Shown: piece by piece, positions 29,467 to 37,014 of the stretch | How the letters are laid out: the number at the start of each line of letters is the position of its first letter | Numbering within the stretch: position 1 is the first letter of the stretch | NCBI RefSeq assembly: GCF_021117345.1 | Contig: NZ_CP088261.1 | Location: 1-64,000, forward strand | Source: Microbacterium sp. cx-55 | GTDB lineage: Bacteria; Actinomycetota; Actinomycetes; Actinomycetales; Microbacteriaceae | Direction: 5' to 3' | DNA length: 64,000 bases | Translations under genes and position numbers: made by a program | The notes under the pieces: model-generated | The model's input: the letters and a program-made list of their open reading frames with translations, nothing else | Databases searched by the model: none | Told to the model about the DNA's origin: nothing

Positions 29467-30036
29467 TTACGCGGGCCCGCGTGCACCCCGCAGAGCGACC
29501 AGCTCGTCGAGCAGGACTGCCAGCGCCCTGTCGTGCCGATCCGTTGCGGTGAACACGCCGTCGGCGACGTGCTCCGACACCCAGGCGATCTCGACGTTCG
29601 TGCTCAGGCACCGCATGCCGAGGTTCACCATGACAGGCTGCAGGGCGACGACCGCGCGAGTGCCGCCCGAAAGTCCGCCGTAGCTCACGACTCCTACGGG
29701 TTTCCCTGACCACTCCGCATGCAGGTAGTCGATGGCGTTCTTCAGCGGCGCCGAGAAGCTGTGGTTGTACTCGGGCATCACGAAGATCATCGCGTCGGCC
29801 GCCGCCACTTGTGCGCTCCATCGCTTTGCCGGTTCGCCGATGTAGTGCCCCAGCTTCGGATGGTGCGGCTCGTCGTGCAGCGGGAGCCGCAGTTCACGCA
29901 GGTCGACGAGATCGATGTCGAACGCCTCCGCCTCCGGATTCGGCGCGTGCGCTTGGGCCGCCGCGACCACCCAGTCGCCGACGGCGCGGCCCACCCGCGT
30001 CTCGCGGATGCTCGCGACGAGCACGAGGAGGCTCAC
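29467..30036 (-). CDS. NADPH-dependent FMN reductase family protein
   Basis: A 189-residue flavodoxin-like reductase. The FMN-binding N-terminus LVASIRETRVGRAVGDW and the family signature VMPEYNHSFSAPLKNAIDYL near residues 85-104 are clear, and VSYGGLSGGTRAV follows. It is the last gene of the minus-strand catabolic operon; its GTG start overlaps the amidohydrolase stop by 4 bases. It could reduce quinone-like intermediates or supply reduced flavin. The specific substrate is unknown. Confidence 0.88.
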   Translation of the reverse strand: MSLLVLVASIRETRVGRAVGDWVVAAAQAHAPNPEAEAFDIDLVDLRELRLPLHDEPHHPKLGHYIGEPAKRWSAQVAAADAMIFVMPEYNHSFSAPLKNAIDYLHAEWSGKPVGVVSYGGLSGGTRAVVALQPVMVNLGMRCLSTNVEIAWVSEHVADGVFTATDRHDRALAVLLDELVALRGARGPA

Positions 30037-31520
30037 AGCGCCACGTCTGCCCGCTCCGACTCCTTCTGATGAGTCGAGGCATCCTTGTACTCGGTGTACG
30101 TGTAGGGGTTGTCGAGCATCTTGGCCTCGGGGGCGTCGGGGTTCATGCCCTGCGTCCAGGCAGGTTCGCCGAGTTCACTCTGCAGGTAGTCGACGGTCGA
30201 CTCGACGTCTCTCTTCACCGAGGCGAGGTCGTCGCCCAGTAGCCTGCCGTCGTACTTGGCGATCACGCCGTCGACCATCACCGTGTGCACGTCGCCACGG
30301 CCGGCTTGCAGCGCGATGTGCCCGTTCGGATTGAGGATCGGGTACATGGTCGGCGAGTGGTCGTTCTTGATGAGAACGATGTCGGCACGTTTGCCCACCT
30401 CGAGCGAACCGACCAGGTTCTGCATGCCGAGGCCCTCGGCCCCGCCCCGCGTCGCCCAGTCGACGACGTGCTCGGCGCGCAGATGCGAATGGGTGACGGT
30501 GTCGCCGTGCTCGTGGGCCTTGATGTGCTCCCATCCGCGATCCGCGCCGAGTGTCGACCGCATGGCCGAGAACAGGTCGCTCGAGAACCACACGCTGGTG
30601 TCGACCGACAGAGAGACCGGGATACCGTGCTGACGCAGGATCCACGACGGTGGATACCCCTGGCCGCAGCTCAGCTCGCTCTCCGTCGAGAGGGAGACCG
30701 ATCCGCCGGTGGCGGCGATGCGCTGGTATGAGTCGTCGCTGAGCGTGGCGGCGTGCACGTAGACCGTCTCGGGTGCCATGAACCCGTTCTCGTGCATGAG
30801 TCGGACGCCGTCGTCGTTGGTCGCCCCCCAGACCCCGGCGTGGGTCGTGACGGGCAGCCCGAGCTCGCGGGCCGCCTCGAACGCCGCGCGCTCGGGAAAC
30901 GCAGGGTCGCCGGTCACGTCGAACGCCAGCTGGAATCTCAGGTCGTCGGCGCCCGTGTTGTTCTTCGCGAGGAAGGCGAGGACGTCGGGGTCGGCGGACC
31001 ACTCCCACGGGCCGGCAAAGATGTTGCCGTAGGCGAGCACGAATCGCCCGGTGGAGGCGCGGAGGGCGTCGAGGGCGGCCTCGCCATGGTCGATGGTGCG
31101 GAGTCCGTGCGACCAGTCGACGGTCGTCGTGACACCCGCATCGATCGCGTCGAGCGCCGACAGGCGGTTGCCCGCGTGCACGTCTTCGGGGCGGAAGCTC
31201 TTGCCGTGCTCGAGGTAGTACCAGACGAAGTACTGGGTGAGGGTCCAGTCGGCGCCGTACCCGCGCATGGCGGTCTGCCACATGTGCCGGTGGGTGTCGA
31301 TCATGCCCGGCATCAGGATGCCGTCGGTCGCGTCGATCTCGAAGGTGCCGTCCGGCACGGCCAGCCGCTCGCCGATGGCTGCGACGCTGTTGCCGATGAC
31401 GAGCACATCGGAGTTGTTCAGAACCCGTCGCCGATCGTCGACCGTCACGACCGTTCCGTTTCGGAAGACGACCGGCCTGCCGTCTGTGGGCGGCTCGGGG
31501 ATCTTCGGGTTCTGCGACAT
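30033..31520 (-). CDS. Amidohydrolase (Atz/Trz-type)
   Basis: A 495-residue metal-dependent hydrolase of the Atz/Trz branch of the amidohydrolase superfamily. Metal-binding HRH lies in GMIDTHRHMWQTAMRG near residue 70, a second histidine in THAGVWGATND, and the Asp in LSVDTSVWFSSD. An N-terminal beta part (FRNGTVVTVDD) and a C-terminal SLEVGKRADIVLI flank the barrel, as in this family. ATG 31520 is chosen at the start of the domain; upstream in-frame sequence has no support. Context is a ring-cleavage operon, so the substrate is probably a heterocyclic or amino-substituted compound; that is inference. Confidence 0.85.
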   Translation of the reverse strand: MSQNPKIPEPPTDGRPVVFRNGTVVTVDDRRRVLNNSDVLVIGNSVAAIGERLAVPDGTFEIDATDGILMPGMIDTHRHMWQTAMRGYGADWTLTQYFVWYYLEHGKSFRPEDVHAGNRLSALDAIDAGVTTTVDWSHGLRTIDHGEAALDALRASTGRFVLAYGNIFAGPWEWSADPDVLAFLAKNNTGADDLRFQLAFDVTGDPAFPERAAFEAARELGLPVTTHAGVWGATNDDGVRLMHENGFMAPETVYVHAATLSDDSYQRIAATGGSVSLSTESELSCGQGYPPSWILRQHGIPVSLSVDTSVWFSSDLFSAMRSTLGADRGWEHIKAHEHGDTVTHSHLRAEHVVDWATRGGAEGLGMQNLVGSLEVGKRADIVLIKNDHSPTMYPILNPNGHIALQAGRGDVHTVMVDGVIAKYDGRLLGDDLASVKRDVESTVDYLQSELGEPAWTQGMNPDAPEAKMLDNPYTYTEYKDASTHQKESERADVAL

Positions 31521-31576
31521 GATTCGACTCCTTCGGCGATGTCTGTTCGGGACGCTGGATGGTGGTGCGGGAGGGC

Positions 31577-31951
31577 TCAGAGGGCGACCGTCGGGTAGTC
31601 CTTGCCGATCCAGTGGGCGAGCCTGACTGCGTACTCCCGCTGGAACGCCAGCGGACCGGACGCGGTCTCGTACTCGTCGTTGTAAAGGGCGATGAAGATC
31701 GTGAGCGTCAGGAAGAAGTGCGCGCCGAGCTCGAAGAGTCGCGTGTAGTCGTGCTCCACGAGCGCGCGGCGCTCCTCCTCGGTGAATGAGAGCCAGCTGG
31801 TCTTCTCGACTCGGTTCCCTGTGCCGAGCCACTGGCCGTACTCGGCCTCCCATCTCGTGACCAGGCCATCCGGATCGGCCTTGTATGCCGCCAGAAGCTC
31901 GGGGTCGCGGTCGACCTGGTACAGGAACTTGTTCACGTAGTACTTGCTCAT
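31577..31951 (-). CDS. Extradiol dioxygenase small subunit, LigA-like
   Basis: A 124-residue protein of the LigA family, the small non-catalytic subunit of class III (protocatechuate 4,5-type) extradiol dioxygenases. The helical pattern VNKFLYQVDRDPELLAAY, LVEHDYTRLFELGAHFFLTLTIF is visible. LigA covers the active-site opening of LigB. The ATG overlaps the LigB stop by 4 bases, so expression is coupled and the two should form a complex. Substrate cannot be told from this subunit. Confidence 0.85.
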   Translation of the reverse strand: MSKYYVNKFLYQVDRDPELLAAYKADPDGLVTRWEAEYGQWLGTGNRVEKTSWLSFTEEERRALVEHDYTRLFELGAHFFLTLTIFIALYNDEYETASGPLAFQREYAVRLAHWIGKDYPTVAL

Positions 31952-32808
31952 CGCGGGTCACCGCCCGGGTACCAGGTCATGTACATCTCGCGGGTGTGGA
32001 AGAGGTCGAGCTCATCGACGTAGGAGGCGGGAATGGCGCCCGCGATGCCCATCATGAGAATGAGGTCCATGAAGCCGTGCGTGGCGTTGCCCGCGCCCGC
32101 CATCGACTCGTGCGTGACATTCTCGAGGATCGCGTCGATGTCGCCGGCGGCCAGCCAATCGATCGCCTTGCGGTCGAACTCGGGGTCGGGGCCGGTCTCG
32201 CCGAACTGCCTCGGTCCTCCGAGCTCGAGCGACAGGTGCCCGCTGCCGACGGCGGCGATGCGCAGGTCGCTGGGATACTCGTCGATGATGCTGCGGATGG
32301 CCCGGCCCAACTGCCAGAAACGCTTCGGGCTGGGCAGGGGCGGGGCGAAGATGTTCGTGTAGATCGGCACGACGGGCAGATCTGCGTCCGGCCGTGTCGT
32401 GATGATCGGGCAGATGATCGAGTGGTCGAGCTTCAGTTCGTGGCTGACGGAGAAGTCGAATCCCCGGTCGAGCAGGCCCTGCAGCATGTAGCCCGAGAGT
32501 TCCTCGTGGCCGTCGAGCACGTAGGGCGGGATGCCGAACTCACGTTCCTCGTTGTAGAAGATCGCGTCGTAGGTGGGCTGCTTGCCGATGAGGAAGGCGG
32601 GGTAGTTGTCGGAGAAGAACTGGTGGAAGTGGTCGGCTCCGACCATCACGAGGATGTCGGGCTTCGCGACGGTCAGCGTCTCGCGGTAGGCCTCGACCTT
32701 GCGCTTCCATTCGTCGGCCTGGGGCATCCGGCTTTCGGGCGGCGCGGTGGTGGCCTTGAGATAGAAGGGGTGGTGCGTGGTCGCTAGAACGGCGCTCAGT
32801 TCTGCCAT
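31948..32808 (-). CDS. Extradiol dioxygenase catalytic subunit, LigB-like
   Basis: A 286-residue class III extradiol dioxygenase that cleaves catechol-type rings next to the hydroxyl pair using Fe(II). Residues that match the LigB active site are His12 (ATTHHPFY), His60 (GADHFHQFF), catalytic-type His191 (VGSGHLSLEL) and Glu234 (THESMAG). Known LigB has His12, His61, His195 and Glu242, so the spacing agrees. Upstream of LigA, unlike the usual ligA-ligB order. The ring substrate (protocatechuate, gallate, homoprotocatechuate or another) is undetermined. Confidence 0.88.
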   Translation of the reverse strand: MAELSAVLATTHHPFYLKATTAPPESRMPQADEWKRKVEAYRETLTVAKPDILVMVGADHFHQFFSDNYPAFLIGKQPTYDAIFYNEEREFGIPPYVLDGHEELSGYMLQGLLDRGFDFSVSHELKLDHSIICPIITTRPDADLPVVPIYTNIFAPPLPSPKRFWQLGRAIRSIIDEYPSDLRIAAVGSGHLSLELGGPRQFGETGPDPEFDRKAIDWLAAGDIDAILENVTHESMAGAGNATHGFMDLILMMGIAGAIPASYVDELDLFHTREMYMTWYPGGDPR

Positions 32809-32810
32809 CG

Positions 32811-33635
32811 TCAGGCTCCTTCGCCGGATGCGTCGGTTTCGCCCGATGCGGGGGCGGGTGGCACGTAGACCGCGTTCCGATCGACCGAATAGTAGACGTC
32901 GGGGCCGATCGGGCTGACCTGCTCCTCTCGGATGTGACCGAGCAACCCTGCCGTGCGGGCGAGCAGCGCGAAGCCGCGCAGCATCGTGACCGGCAGTCCG
33001 AGGTCTGCGAGGGCTGCGCCGGCGACTCCCGCGCCGTTCAGGGGCAGGTTCTTGCCGAGCACCTCGTGTTGCACCCGCCCGATGGCGGCGAACAGCCTCA
33101 GGTGCGGGCCCAGGGTGCCTTCCTTCGCGGCGATGCGCATGATCACGGGGGTGCGCGGATCGCCGTCCTTGTGCACCGGATGGCCGAGTCCGGGGATGCG
33201 CCGCTTTTCGGCCTTCGCGGACAGCAGTGCAGTGCGCGCCACCTGATCCCATTCGGCATCGCTGAAGGCCGCGGTGTCGCCAGTGAGGGACTGCACGATC
33301 GCGTCGAGGTAGAGGCCGGTGTCTTCGGTGACCCCCAGAAAGCGCGAGCCGCCGCCGAGCAGGCCGGCCGCGACGGCCCCCTGCAGCGAGTCCGGTGCGC
33401 TGTAATAGGTGAGCCGCGCGGCGATCGCGGTGGGCGTGAAGCCATGGTCCGCGAGCGACACGAGCACGGCTTCGAACACCCGACCCTCGGCCGCGGTCGG
33501 CGGTCTCTTGGCGACGAGCCAGAACGCAAGCTCGCCGAAAGTGACCTTGCCGAGAAGATCTGCGCTCAGATCCTGGCCCAGCAGTGAAATGCTCGACAGG
33601 TCGCTGGTTCCGATTCCGGTGGGGTAGTCGGTCAT
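32811..33635 (-). CDS. Citryl-CoA lyase-like protein (short citrate synthase family)
   Basis: A 274-residue member of the citrate synthase family, about 100 residues shorter than full citrate synthase. The conserved GLGHPVHKDGDPR near residues 155-167 and the second-half helices VQHEVLGKNLPLNGAGVAGAALADL are intact. Proteins of this size are annotated as citryl-CoA lyases, which split an acyl-CoA with a tertiary alcohol. Directly beside a CoA-transferase and LigAB it probably cleaves a CoA-activated ring-fission product. The stop is 2 bases before the LigB ATG. The reaction is inferred from family and context. Confidence 0.75.
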   Translation of the reverse strand: MTDYPTGIGTSDLSSISLLGQDLSADLLGKVTFGELAFWLVAKRPPTAAEGRVFEAVLVSLADHGFTPTAIAARLTYYSAPDSLQGAVAAGLLGGGSRFLGVTEDTGLYLDAIVQSLTGDTAAFSDAEWDQVARTALLSAKAEKRRIPGLGHPVHKDGDPRTPVIMRIAAKEGTLGPHLRLFAAIGRVQHEVLGKNLPLNGAGVAGAALADLGLPVTMLRGFALLARTAGLLGHIREEQVSPIGPDVYYSVDRNAVYVPPAPASGETDASGEGA

Positions 33636-34798
33636 GATCTGAGCCAGTCCTTGATCTCGGTGTCGTCGGCGCCCAACGCGGGTGGGGCACTGCGGTAGGC
33701 GGGTGGAGTGAGTGAGAAGTCGATGGGATTTCTGATCATCGGCACTGCGCTCTCTCCCTCTCCCACGAGCACCACGGGATCGAGGCCGAGGCTCTCGGCG
33801 AGGGCCACGCCTCCGTCGATGGTGTTGATCGGCCCGCAGGCGACCCCCGCCCGGGTCAACGTCTCGAACCACTCGGCGACGGATGCGGTCGCCAGGGCCT
33901 CGAGGAGCAGGGGGCGCAGCGCCTCGCGGTTGCGGTTGCGCAGTTCGGTCTTCGCGAAGCGGTGGTCGTCGGCCAGTTCTGCGAGCCCCAATGCGGTGGC
34001 GAGCTTCACGAACTGGGCGTCGTTGGCGGCGACGATGACGATCTCACCGTCGGCCGCGGCGAGCGGTTCGTAGGGGAACAGACTCGGATGCGCGTTGCCC
34101 ATGCGAAACGGAACCTGCCCGCCGGCGACGAAGGTTGAGCTGTGGTTGGCCATCGCCGAGAGCGCCGTCGACAGCAGATTCACCTCGACGTGCTGGCCCT
34201 CGCCCGTGTTGTTGCGGTGGTTCAGGGCGGCGAGGATGCCGATCGTGGCCTGCATCCCGGTCATGATGTCGAACACCGAGACGCCGCTGCGGTAGGCGGG
34301 TCCGTCGGATTCGCCGGTGAGGCTCATCAACCCGGATGCGGCCTGCACGATCAGGTCGTATCCCGGCAGCGACGCCCCGCCTTTCGAGCCGAATCCACTG
34401 ATCGACGCGTAGATGACGGCGGGATTGAGAGCCGCGACGGAGTCGTAATCGAGCCCGAACTTGCTCAGGCCGCCGGGCCGGAAGTTCTCGATCACGATGT
34501 CGGCACGCGCGGCGAGCTCTTGCGCGAGTGCGCGGTCGGCGTGGTCGCCGAAGTCGAGCACCACATCACGCTTGTTGCGGTTGATGCCGAGGAAGTAGGT
34601 GGAGACACCGTCGCGCTCGGGTGGCACCCAGTCGCGGGTCTCGTCGCCCTTGGGACTCTCCACCTTGATGACGTTGGCGCCGAGGTCGGCCATCAGCTGC
34701 GTCGCATACGGGCCGGCGAGTACGCGGGAGAAGTCGGCGACCACGAGCCCCGCTAACGGGCCGGGTCGTGGGTTCGTGTGGGGGAATGGAGTCGTCAT
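33632..34798 (-). CDS. Type III CoA-transferase (CaiB/BaiF family)
   Basis: A 388-residue family III CoA-transferase, which moves CoA between carboxylic acids. Typical segments are LAGLVVADFSRVLAGPYATQLMADLGANVIKVE near the N-terminus, KRDVVLDFG, IENFRPGGLSKFGLDYD, and the catalytic-Asp region YRSGVSVFDIMTGMQATIGILAAL. I chose ATG 34798 as start; in-frame starts exist upstream at 34807 and farther. It is the first structural gene behind the operator cluster at 34818-34842. It overlaps the next gene by 4 bases. Substrate acid unknown. Confidence 0.87.
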   Translation of the reverse strand: MTTPFPHTNPRPGPLAGLVVADFSRVLAGPYATQLMADLGANVIKVESPKGDETRDWVPPERDGVSTYFLGINRNKRDVVLDFGDHADRALAQELAARADIVIENFRPGGLSKFGLDYDSVAALNPAVIYASISGFGSKGGASLPGYDLIVQAASGLMSLTGESDGPAYRSGVSVFDIMTGMQATIGILAALNHRNNTGEGQHVEVNLLSTALSAMANHSSTFVAGGQVPFRMGNAHPSLFPYEPLAAADGEIVIVAANDAQFVKLATALGLAELADDHRFAKTELRNRNREALRPLLLEALATASVAEWFETLTRAGVACGPINTIDGGVALAESLGLDPVVLVGEGESAVPMIRNPIDFSLTPPAYRSAPPALGADDTEIKDWLRS

Positions 34799-34817
34799 CG
34801 TCACCATATCTGCATTT

Positions 34818-34842
34818 GCGGACAAACGTCCGCCATGCGGAC
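34818..34842. promoter_or_regulatory. Operator with three GCGGAC half-sites for the IclR-type regulator
   Basis: GCGGAC (34818-34823) and its inverse GTCCGC (34828-34833) form a palindrome around AAAC, and a third direct GCGGAC lies at 34837-34842. This two-palindrome-plus-direct arrangement matches the three 10-bp repeats bound by PcaU and PobR of the IclR family. It lies just in front of the CoA-transferase start and downstream of the IclR gene. The repeat is seen; binding is inferred. Confidence 0.7.
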
Positions 34843-34901
34843 ATGTGCTCAGTATGCGCCGCGAGGTGACGGTCGTCAATGGTGCAGGACGGACCTCCGG
34901 C

Positions 34902-35705
34902 TCACCGGCCGACGATCTCGCTGAACGGCCGACCCTCGAGCCTCGCCCAGTCAGCCGAGATGTGCGCAGCCGTCTCGAGAAGGGGGGCGAGGTGCCGCTC
35001 GATCAAGTCTGCTGTCGGCGTCTCTGCCGCATGCACCGTCACGTTGGCGGCTGCTCGAACCGTGCCCGATCCGTCGCGCACCGGGGCGGCGATGGAGCGC
35101 ACGCCGGGCGCGAGCTCCTCGTCGGCCAGCGCCCAGCCGCGTTCGCGCACGAGGGACAGCTCACGGTCGAGGTCGGCGCGGTCTCGGGGTGCGATGACCA
35201 CCCGCGACAGGCTGGGCTGGTCGAGGGCGAACTCGAGCGCATCCGGGGCCAGCCATGCCAGCAGCACCTTGCCCTGCGAGGTGACAACCGCGGGAAACCG
35301 AGTGCCGATCTCGACGCGCAGCGCAATGATCTTCGGCACCGCGACCCTGGCCGTGTAGACGATGTCACTGCCACTCAGTTGAGCCATCGACGACGACTCG
35401 CCGGTGAGGTGCACGAGGCCCTCGAGATGAGGCTTCGCCACCGTCCAGAGCCCCTGTGAGCTGACGAACGCGTAGCCCAGGTCGAGTACGCGGGGGGTGA
35501 GCTCGAATAGCGACGCGTCTTGGCGCACGTAGCCGAGCTCGATCAGGGTGGCGAGGAGCCGATGTGTCGTGGGCCGCGCGAGGTTCGTCTCGGCGGCGAT
35601 CTCGGCCAGCGACATGCGGGGGCGGCCGTCGGAGAACGCTCCGATGATGTCGAAGCCGCGCGCGAGGGCTTCGACGAAGTTGGAGGATTCACTGCGGCCG
35701 GCCAT
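34902..35705 (-). CDS. IclR-family transcriptional regulator (PcaR/PobR type)
   Basis: A 267-residue regulator. The N-terminal winged helix-turn-helix (about residues 20-65, ALARGFDIIGAF and SLAEIAAETNLARPTTHRLLATLIELGYV) is followed by the IclR effector domain, with TRFPAVVTSQGKVLLAWL and PGVRSIAAPVRDGSG. Sequence style recalls PcaR/PobR/PcaU regulators of aromatic degradation. It is encoded upstream of and on the same strand as the LigAB operon it probably controls. Its ligand is unknown. ATG 35705 is chosen at the domain start. Confidence 0.9.
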   Translation of the reverse strand: MAGRSESSNFVEALARGFDIIGAFSDGRPRMSLAEIAAETNLARPTTHRLLATLIELGYVRQDASLFELTPRVLDLGYAFVSSQGLWTVAKPHLEGLVHLTGESSSMAQLSGSDIVYTARVAVPKIIALRVEIGTRFPAVVTSQGKVLLAWLAPDALEFALDQPSLSRVVIAPRDRADLDRELSLVRERGWALADEELAPGVRSIAAPVRDGSGTVRAAANVTVHAAETPTADLIERHLAPLLETAAHISADWARLEGRPFSEIVGR

Positions 35706-35784: not shown

Positions 35785-37014
35785 TCAGTGGCGCCCGGCC
35801 CCGACGTTCGCGCCGGGAAGGGGCTTCGCGGCACCCGAGGCGAAACCGGATGCGGCAACCAGCACGACGAGGATGAACAGCGTGTTCAGCAACCCGATGT
35901 GCTCGCTGACAAGGCCGAGGAGCGGGGGACCGGCGAGGAACGCGACGTAGCCGATCGTCGCCGCCGCGCTCACCCGGGCCGCGGCCCGGGCGGGATCGTC
36001 TCCGGCGGCCGACATACCGAGGGGGAACCCGAGCGACGCTCCGATTCCCCAGAGCGCCGCGCCCACGAAGACGAGCGGCAGGTTCGGCGCGAGGATGAAG
36101 AGGAGGAGCCCGGCGACCGCCGCGAGCGAGAGCACCCGGAGCACCAGAACCCGGCCGAATCGGTCGACCAGGGGCCCGCCGAACACGCGCACGACCGTCA
36201 TGCTCACCGAGAAGACCGCGAGACCGAGCGCCCCGAGCTCCTGCTGGGCCTCGTGACCCTCCACGACGCCCAGCGCCAGCCAGTCGTTCGCGCCGCCCTC
36301 GGCGAACGACATGCCGAGCATGACCACACCGAGCGCGTAGGTGCGGGGCTCCCGCCACGCCGAAAGGGCGACGCCGATGCGTTCCCGCCAGCTCGAATGC
36401 GCAGGACTCTGCGCGGAGTCGCCGGTCTCGTTCCGCTTCGGCACGTTCGCGAAGCTGACGACAGCGACCAGGGCGAGCACGACGGCGATGACGCCCAGAT
36501 GGGTGACCACGTTCCATCCGGCGCCGATGAAGACGACACCGAGCCCCGCACCCACGACCGTGCCGGCGCTGAAGAACGCGTGGAACAGGGGGAGGAGCGT
36601 GCGACTCGACTGCGCCTCGATCGCCGCGCCCTCGACGTTCATCATGACGTCAACGGATCCGTTGCCGAAGCCCCACAGCACGAGACCGGCGGTCACCAGC
36701 GGCACCGAGCCCGCCACATCCGTTCCCACACCGATCAACGCGATGCCGGTCGCGAAGACCAGGATGGCGCCGAGCATGCCGCCGCGTGCGCCGAACCTCG
36801 CCGTGATCAGCGACGAGAGCGAAAGCCCCACGATCGAGGCGATCCCGCCGATCAGGAGCATGATGCCGACCTGCACGTTGTCGATATCGAGGGTCTGCTT
36901 GATCGCGGGAACGCGCGACGCCCATGTCGCCACGCTCAGACCGCTCGCGAGGAAGATCGCGAAGATCGCCGTGCGCCATCGGACGAACTGGGAACGGGAG
37001 AGGACGAGTTCCAT
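35785..37014 (-). CDS. MFS transporter
   Basis: A 409-residue major facilitator with about twelve hydrophobic segments. The signature-like GGIASIVGLSLSSLITARFGARGG after helix 2 and RVFGGPLVDRFGRVLVLRVLSL mid-protein fit the family. The ATG 37014 begins a normal N-terminus; a huge in-frame ORF extends upstream but is antisense to the LacI gene. It is divergent from a LacI-type regulator with a palindrome between them. Substrate is not predictable, but sugars or sugar-derived compounds would suit the regulator. Confidence 0.88.
   Translation of the reverse strand: MELVLSRSQFVRWRTAIFAIFLASGLSVATWASRVPAIKQTLDIDNVQVGIMLLIGGIASIVGLSLSSLITARFGARGGMLGAILVFATGIALIGVGTDVAGSVPLVTAGLVLWGFGNGSVDVMMNVEGAAIEAQSSRTLLPLFHAFFSAGTVVGAGLGVVFIGAGWNVVTHLGVIAVVLALVAVVSFANVPKRNETGDSAQSPAHSSWRERIGVALSAWREPRTYALGVVMLGMSFAEGGANDWLALGVVEGHEAQQELGALGLAVFSVSMTVVRVFGGPLVDRFGRVLVLRVLSLAAVAGLLLFILAPNLPLVFVGAALWGIGASLGFPLGMSAAGDDPARAAARVSAAATIGYVAFLAGPPLLGLVSEHIGLLNTLFILVVLVAASGFASGAAKPLPGANVGAGRH

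Follow-up and report, generated by a model that had tools for sequence, protein, structure and literature searches.

The window analysed here, 64,000 nt of the Microbacterium sp. cx-55 genome (C1:1-64000 of its single contig of 3.27 Mb), contains an operon of seven genes at positions 29467-35705, all on the minus strand. In this order, the genes encode an IclR-family regulator, a type III coenzyme A (CoA)-transferase, a short citrate-synthase-family protein (in the following called CCL), a LigB-type dioxygenase subunit, a LigA-type subunit, an amidohydrolase and a flavin mononucleotide (FMN) reductase. This arrangement suggests an undescribed way to finish the breakdown of aromatic compounds. 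Profile searches confirmed the families and the start and stop codons were rechecked, so that the genes and families proposed in an earlier note on this DNA stand; the continuous 4-base overlaps described there were found at three junctions only (transferase/CCL, LigB/LigA and amidohydrolase/FMN reductase), with gaps of 2 bases between the CCL and LigB genes and 56 bases between the LigA and amidohydrolase genes. The closest relatives of the operon are from Agreia, with a LigB 98% identical and an identical gene order; the operon is tight in one Agreia locus (L002), and another (L003) has its IclR gene some 2.6 kb further upstream.

The regulator (34902-35705) is PcaR/PobR-like and reaches 246 bits with TIGR02431, under the cut-off of 285. 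Just upstream of the CoA-transferase gene, at 34818-34841 on the same strand, lies a possible IclR operator, composed of the palindrome TCCGCATGGCGGA (34829-34841) and a direct half-site TCCGC (34818-34822). In 24 of 44 actinobacterial loci, the motif TCCGN5CGGA lies no more than 200 bases from the start of the transferase reading frame; from its density over those loci, about 0.037 per locus would be expected. A reading frame resembling transporters of the major facilitator superfamily (35785-36976, start approximate) lies on the same strand, immediately upstream of the regulator gene.

The CoA-transferase (33632-34807) belongs to the type III (CaiB/BaiF) family and covers positions 1-365 of the 366 in PF02515 with 387 bits. 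It is the only full-profile match in the genome; one other match covers about half. Its nearest named kin are of the succinate-(hydroxymethyl)glutarate type (SUGCT, NF052585), with which it shares the type III family (335 bits) and the conserved Asp, present in the motif variants FDIMTG/ADAITG; it falls far under the NF052585 equivalog cut-off of 750 bits. In type III CoA-transferases this Asp is catalytic. CCL (32811-33635) is annotated "citryl-CoA lyase" and matches NF004868 with 271 bits (cut-off 193) and PF00285 with 74.5 bits; the other two PF00285 matches in the genome are full-length citrate synthases. LigB (31948-32808; PF02900, 96 bits) is the catalytic subunit of a class III extradiol dioxygenase type; at E 0.001, nothing else in the genome matches PF02900. 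The LigA-type small subunit (31577-31951) scores 25.0 bits with PF07746, slightly below the cut-off of 25.3. The LigB fold and a separate LigA subunit are both present, as in LigAB-type enzymes. The operon ends with an Atz/Trz-like amidohydrolase (30033-31520; PF01979, 93 bits; PRK08204, 370 bits, cut-off 391) and an NAD(P)H-dependent FMN reductase family protein, FMN_red (29467-30036; PF03358, 121 bits).

Linkage of LigBA with CCL and the CoA-transferase

The earlier note had proposed a search for co-occurrence across genomes. Scanning genomes by LigB alone yielded 69 loci in Actinobacteria and Alphaproteobacteria, to which we added six plasmid loci with a LigB identity of at least 60%, a part of such plasmid matches, giving 75 loci. 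Neighbours were counted by BLASTP with bit-score floors of 90 for CCL and transferase, 100 for amidohydrolase and IclR, and 40 for LigA and FMN reductase; some loci stop at contig ends, and four alphaproteobacterial loci (L032, L044, L049 and L075) fall in the actinobacterial rows of the LigB and LigA counts. Within 5 kb of LigB, LigA was found in all 75 loci, CCL together with the transferase in 71, the IclR gene in 63, the amidohydrolase in 55 and the FMN reductase in 25. In an independent draw of 396 genomes across the phylum, nine (own included) encode this LigB with an E-value of at most 1e-60, and a CCL over the NF004868 cut-off is present in 24; CCL adjoins LigB in eight of the nine, with G183 as the exception. 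This linkage rules out a chance neighbourhood: the coupling of LigBA with the transferase and CCL is not accidental.

We also looked at CCL-like family members without LigB. They adjoin genes for a CoA-ligase, CoA-transferase, acyl-CoA dehydrogenase or hydratase in ten of 11 annotated contexts; the eleventh (L079) has a CoA ester lyase as well as an unannotated split frame that is transferase-like by BLASTP. Two Rhizobium plasmids (L075 and L112) carry a LigB of 69-72% identity. No lyase or transferase is annotated in its vicinity, where genes for an alpha/beta hydrolase and a cytochrome P450 lie and, in L075, also one for an FAA hydrolase; perhaps these represent the same dioxygenase in another pathway. 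On plasmid pUSP2 of Aminobacter sp. MSH1 (L071:8965-9990), a uroporphyrinogen-decarboxylase-family gene and a CocE hydrolase gene lie inside the operon.

The partners of LigB differ in their relationships. LigB is about 83% identical between actinobacterial and alphaproteobacterial operons, but the alphaproteobacterial CCL and transferase are only 38% and 33% identical to the copies in the window. In a quick tree of 89 CCL sequences, the actinobacterial operon copies formed one clade, and the alphaproteobacterial copies were interspersed with CCLs of other settings, among them L080 and L108, loci at which no LigB was found. Constraining the 72 operon CCLs to a single origin was rejected by the approximately unbiased test (p-AU 0.000885; 0.00588 with L109 added). 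Likewise, the transferase of the alphaproteobacterial operon L073 scores 401 bits in BLASTP against that of L080 from Paraburkholderia, with no LigB nearby, compared to 176 bits against the transferase in the window. The amidohydrolases of the operons also split into different motif groups. Because LigB is nearly identical while the CCL and transferase lineages differ, the pairing probably arose on more than one occasion, as judged from these sequence relationships. A Niveispirillum plasmid (L109:2752-7696) carries IclR, transferase and CCL genes within 5 kb of a LigB only 30% identical to that in the window and is a third pairing, of a third dioxygenase lineage with the CCL-transferase module. 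The recruitment of different proteins of two families to one dioxygenase is expected if it is the LigBA product that is loaded with CoA and split.

Active-site residues of the operon proteins

CCL has the C-terminal citrate-synthase fold, and its fold and two His motifs match the citryl-CoA lyase structure 6hxp. All 72 operon copies retain both catalytic His residues (DHG and GH motifs) and an added His. Compared with 6hxp and the ATP-citrate lyase module, the GHR motif is changed to GHP (GHH in two copies), with the extra His at +3, and the catalytic Asp of the NVD motif is replaced in every copy, by Ala in 45 and by Ser in 27. In the window protein these positions are His155 in GHPVH and Ala202. 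The same kind of alignment retained the Asp in four citrate synthases and seven CCL family members; four matches from the 396-genome draw over or near the NF004868 cut-off (G108:C69, G258:C6, G161:C7 and G123:C67) were left out of this reading. A transferase neighbour was found for 12 of 19 Asp-less and none of seven Asp-bearing CCLs. We take the replaced residue to correspond to D1026 of human ATP-citrate lyase. The D1026A exchange in the human enzyme is reported to have abolished acetyl-CoA formation, for which its authors favour an allosteric reading (PMC10115795). With the Asp missing throughout, a split of the citryl-CoA type is doubtful.

The loss extends beyond the operon. "Citryl-CoA lyase" proteins lacking the Asp occur among NF004868 members (L114-L132) and as plasmid copies in L078-L086, the latter mostly adjoining CoA ligases, acyl-CoA dehydrogenases or CoA-transferases; they probably are a misnamed family with another activity. 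A genome of the same genus that lacks this LigB encodes an Asp-bearing relative with the motifs GHRWH and NVDG (L139, G343:C1:59977-60672). The vanilloyl acetic acid enzyme VceA was considered as a described relative of CCL and dropped, as its fold is not named in the accessible parts of PMC11837543 and PMC9618137.

In LigB, the iron-ligand positions H12 and H60 are conserved in 76 of 76 copies. The predicted LigB model is nearest to the gallate dioxygenase DesB. Its confidence (predicted local distance difference test, pLDDT) is below 50 at residues 58-99, 120-142, 153-156 and 195-204, and a structural reading of the iron site was dropped, the model being too weak there.

The amidohydrolase in the window has the metal-ligand motifs of its family (HxH, His, His and Asp, as THRH, TTHAG, YVHA and SVD). 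The Glu of the HxxE motif, the proton-relay residue that marks Atz/Trz deaminases, is absent from all 56 aligned amidohydrolases (V in 35, T in 12, P in five, Q in three and S in one). As 20 of the 75 loci lack an amidohydrolase within 5 kb, it was rejected as an essential step, and the amino- or hetero-substituted starting compound that the earlier note had read from it is unproven.

Some related loci contain accessory genes, counted as BLASTP clusters with one to three profile-tested or annotated members per cluster: a flavin hydroxylase similar to 2-hydroxybiphenyl-3-monooxygenase (seven loci), a protein resembling carbon-carbon (C-C) hydrolases (five), CocE-type hydrolases (five), DoxX (13) and a lone Aconitase_C gene of the aconitase/LeuD small-subunit type (seven; L017, L026, L029, L042, L065, L068 and L072). 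Liv-type transporters or tripartite ATP-independent periplasmic (TRAP) transporters are found in some as well. The nearest solved kin of the C-C-hydrolase-like protein are 2,6-dihydroxypseudooxynicotine hydrolase and Ayg1, which hydrolyse C-C bonds of aryl ketones. Together, the accessory genes suggest that polyhydroxylated aryl ketones or esters may feed one ring-cleavage substrate. No close homologue of the Rhodococcus hydroxylase was found in the source genome at E 1e-20, in a search without positive control. The conserved core of the operon contains neither a hydratase nor a lactonase.

A proposed CoA-dependent route and its alternatives

Gene content, linkage, apparent repeated recruitment, fold and Asp loss are observed, and from them we infer both the substrate type and the reactions. 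LigBA would open an easily oxidised ring of the catechol or pyrogallol type, giving an oxo-dicarboxylic acid. CoA would be put on this product by the type III transferase, and CCL would split the resulting thioester to yield an oxo-acid and an acyl-CoA, most likely acetyl-CoA. We give an even chance to the general statement that the LigBA product is loaded with CoA and then split by CCL to an acyl-CoA and an oxo-acid. The attachment of a CoA-dependent lower route to LigBA, as the earlier note had proposed, gains support from the conserved linkage and the apparent repeated assembly from different CCL and transferase lineages.

As CCL lacks the catalytic Asp, the split is probably not a retro-aldol reaction of the citryl-CoA type. 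More likely, a beta-oxo-acyl-CoA would be cleaved hydrolytically in a retro-Claisen reaction, for which the new His of GHPxH is a candidate base. As the core lacks a hydratase or lactonase, the LigBA product should be open to cleavage as it stands, which a beta-oxo acid fits. For example, a ring of the 1,2,3,5-tetrahydroxybenzene type could yield 2,4-dioxoadipate, the 6-CoA ester of which would give acetyl-CoA and oxaloacetate upon addition of water; no further enzyme would be needed. With such a product, it would be understandable that a base beside an acidic 1,3-dicarbonyl carbon was lost. That this particular ring is the substrate is quite improbable. The fuller reading, a CoA-dependent extradiol lower route that was put together on two or more occasions around the same LigBA and in which the Asp-less CCL forms acetyl-CoA and an oxo-acid by a new hydrolytic retro-Claisen reaction, is tentative, and we rate it clearly below even.

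Several observations weigh against this route. In LigB, the third iron-ligand position is variable (D in 68, E in five, N in two and V in one of the 76 copies) and lies where the predicted model is weak. The canonical His195, the acid/base residue, is a Leu in all 76 copies, with an invariant His three residues earlier (Leu194 and His191 within GSGHLS in the window protein). With these departures from the LigAB active site, even ring cleavage itself is an inference. Four loci, all alphaproteobacterial (L032, L044, L049 and L075), have LigBA but no CCL or transferase, although L032 is 2.9 kb from a contig end. In three of these genomes that were searched, two had no CCL match at E 1e-10 and one had only a 32% identical relative; LigBA may therefore work without CCL and the transferase. 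Conversely, some loci have a CCL-transferase pair with no LigB in view; the pair is thus not confined to ring cleavage, and the module serves more than one kind of substrate. Finally, the CCL tree came from a quick search and has long branches, which its own checks flagged, for which reason we rate the evidence for repeated assembly as good, not final.

The source genome encodes other aromatic routes. Genes of the pobA and pcaHG type lie at C1:3025476-3029688 and likely represent its protocatechuate route. A cluster at C1:3069852-3079232 (L104) encodes two GCV_T proteins, similar to tetrahydrofolate-dependent O-demethylases, and a Meth_synt_2 protein; it further contains, at C1:3074297-3076828, a PIG-L gene and genes for a 4-oxalomesaconate tautomerase (445.5 bits with NF033377, for which the cut-off is 440) and a 4-carboxy-4-hydroxy-2-oxoadipate aldolase (289 bits with NF006731, above its cut-off of 179), beside a VOC-family gene. 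This cluster looks self-contained and probably serves the catabolism of methoxylated aromatic acids. The absence of Lig lower-route genes stated in the earlier note thus holds for the operon itself; LigK/GalC-, GalD- and GalB-like genes (the aldolase, tautomerase and PIG-L gene) are found elsewhere in the genome. The earlier note had named LigI, LigJ and LigK homologues elsewhere as grounds for giving up its reading, and half of this was found: the LigK-type aldolase and the tautomerase are present, in their own cluster about 0.23 Mb from the operon, across the contig ends if the contig is circular. An ordinary protocatechuate 4,5 operon was rejected, with no Lig/Gal lower genes inside and pcaHG/pobA-type genes elsewhere. 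As protocatechuate and 4-oxalomesaconate have routes elsewhere, the operon probably serves another substrate.

These genes might instead finish the LigBA product. LigBA would then make 4-oxalomesaconate, as in gallate degradation, for the distant tautomerase, PIG-L and LigK-type genes, and the transferase and CCL would act on something else, for instance a side chain. The similarity of the LigB model to DesB and the scores over both cut-offs fit such a division of labour; we consider it unlikely given that a VOC-family gene and two GCV_T-domain genes belong to the distant cluster itself, that the operon has its own regulator and possible operator, and that LigBA, CCL and transferase are linked in 71 of 75 loci.

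Could the split follow ordinary citryl-CoA-lyase chemistry after all? A citrate-like tertiary alcohol, such as hydrated 4-oxalomesaconate, would be loaded with CoA, as the earlier note had imagined. The replacement of the Asp in 72 of 72 operon copies, the effect of D1026A in what we take as the equivalent position (even with the allosteric reading of its authors) and the lack of a hydratase in the conserved core speak against it, so that this part of the earlier note finds no support in its present form; the match of fold and His motifs to 6hxp and the lone Aconitase_C gene in seven loci keep it as an improbable option.

It is also doubtful that the substrate is a hydroxypyridine-type ring, from which the amidohydrolase would remove the nitrogen before or after LigBA, leaving a nitrogen-free acid for the transferase and CCL. 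The amidohydrolase in 55 of 75 loci would fit, as would the relation of the accessory hydrolase in five loci to 2,6-dihydroxypseudooxynicotine hydrolase and the LigB-family PydA, likened here by its description and annotated for 3,4-dihydroxypyridine in a Rhizobium (PMC7356986). The 20 loci without amidohydrolase, the missing HxxE Glu and the resemblance of the regulator to PcaR/PobR regulators of aromatic acids do not.

Very improbable is a role of CCL as a CoA-binding or allosteric partner of the transferase without C-C cleavage, for which the Asp loss and the allosteric role argued for the citrate-synthase-homology module of ATP-citrate lyase (PMC10115795) could be cited, given both catalytic His residues and the added His in 72 of 72 copies and relatives that adjoin CoA ligases without an annotated transferase.

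Comparison with known pathways

If the CoA-dependent route is correct, it occurs in rhizobia and related bacteria as well as in actinobacteria, among them Microbacteriaceae, Micrococcaceae and Rhodococcus. The name "citryl-CoA lyase" (NF004868) would then be attached to many proteins that lack the residue it implies and have another activity, and the four genes would provide a test system for the function of a citrate-synthase fold without the catalytic Asp. In a search of the open-access full texts of PMC, judged by titles and the opening lines of abstracts, we found no paper describing this gene combination, the subscription literature lying mostly outside that scope.

The operon shares the LigB/LigA fold and pairing with the protocatechuate 4,5- and gallate pathways (LigAB/DesB) but lacks their downstream genes (LigC/LigI/LigJ/LigK or GalA-D), of which the genome has the separate set described above. 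With the catabolism of 4-hydroxypyridine (kpi, Arthrobacter sp. IN13) and mimosine (PydA, of the LigB family), the operon and its relatives share flavin hydroxylase, hydrolase and amidohydrolase-family genes (PMC7356986). There, however, the ring is opened by KpiC, which belongs to the amidohydrolase family, and the term CoA does not appear in the main text of that paper. KpiC-like ring opening was also considered for the amidohydrolase of the operon but not adopted.

By its logic, the nearest relative of the operon is the beta-ketoadipate route, with the operon enzymes coming from other families. The lower part of the beta-ketoadipate pathway consists of the CoA-transferase PcaIJ and the thiolase PcaF. 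As in that route, the operon would combine ring cleavage, CoA transfer to an oxo-acid and a C-C split to an acyl-CoA under an IclR-type, PcaR/PobR-like regulator; it differs in having the extradiol LigBA in place of an intradiol dioxygenase, a CaiB/BaiF transferase in place of PcaIJ and CCL in place of the thiolase. If true, the degradation of aromatic compounds by extradiol cleavage could be completed through a CoA-linked branch, on a par with the beta-ketoadipate pathway.

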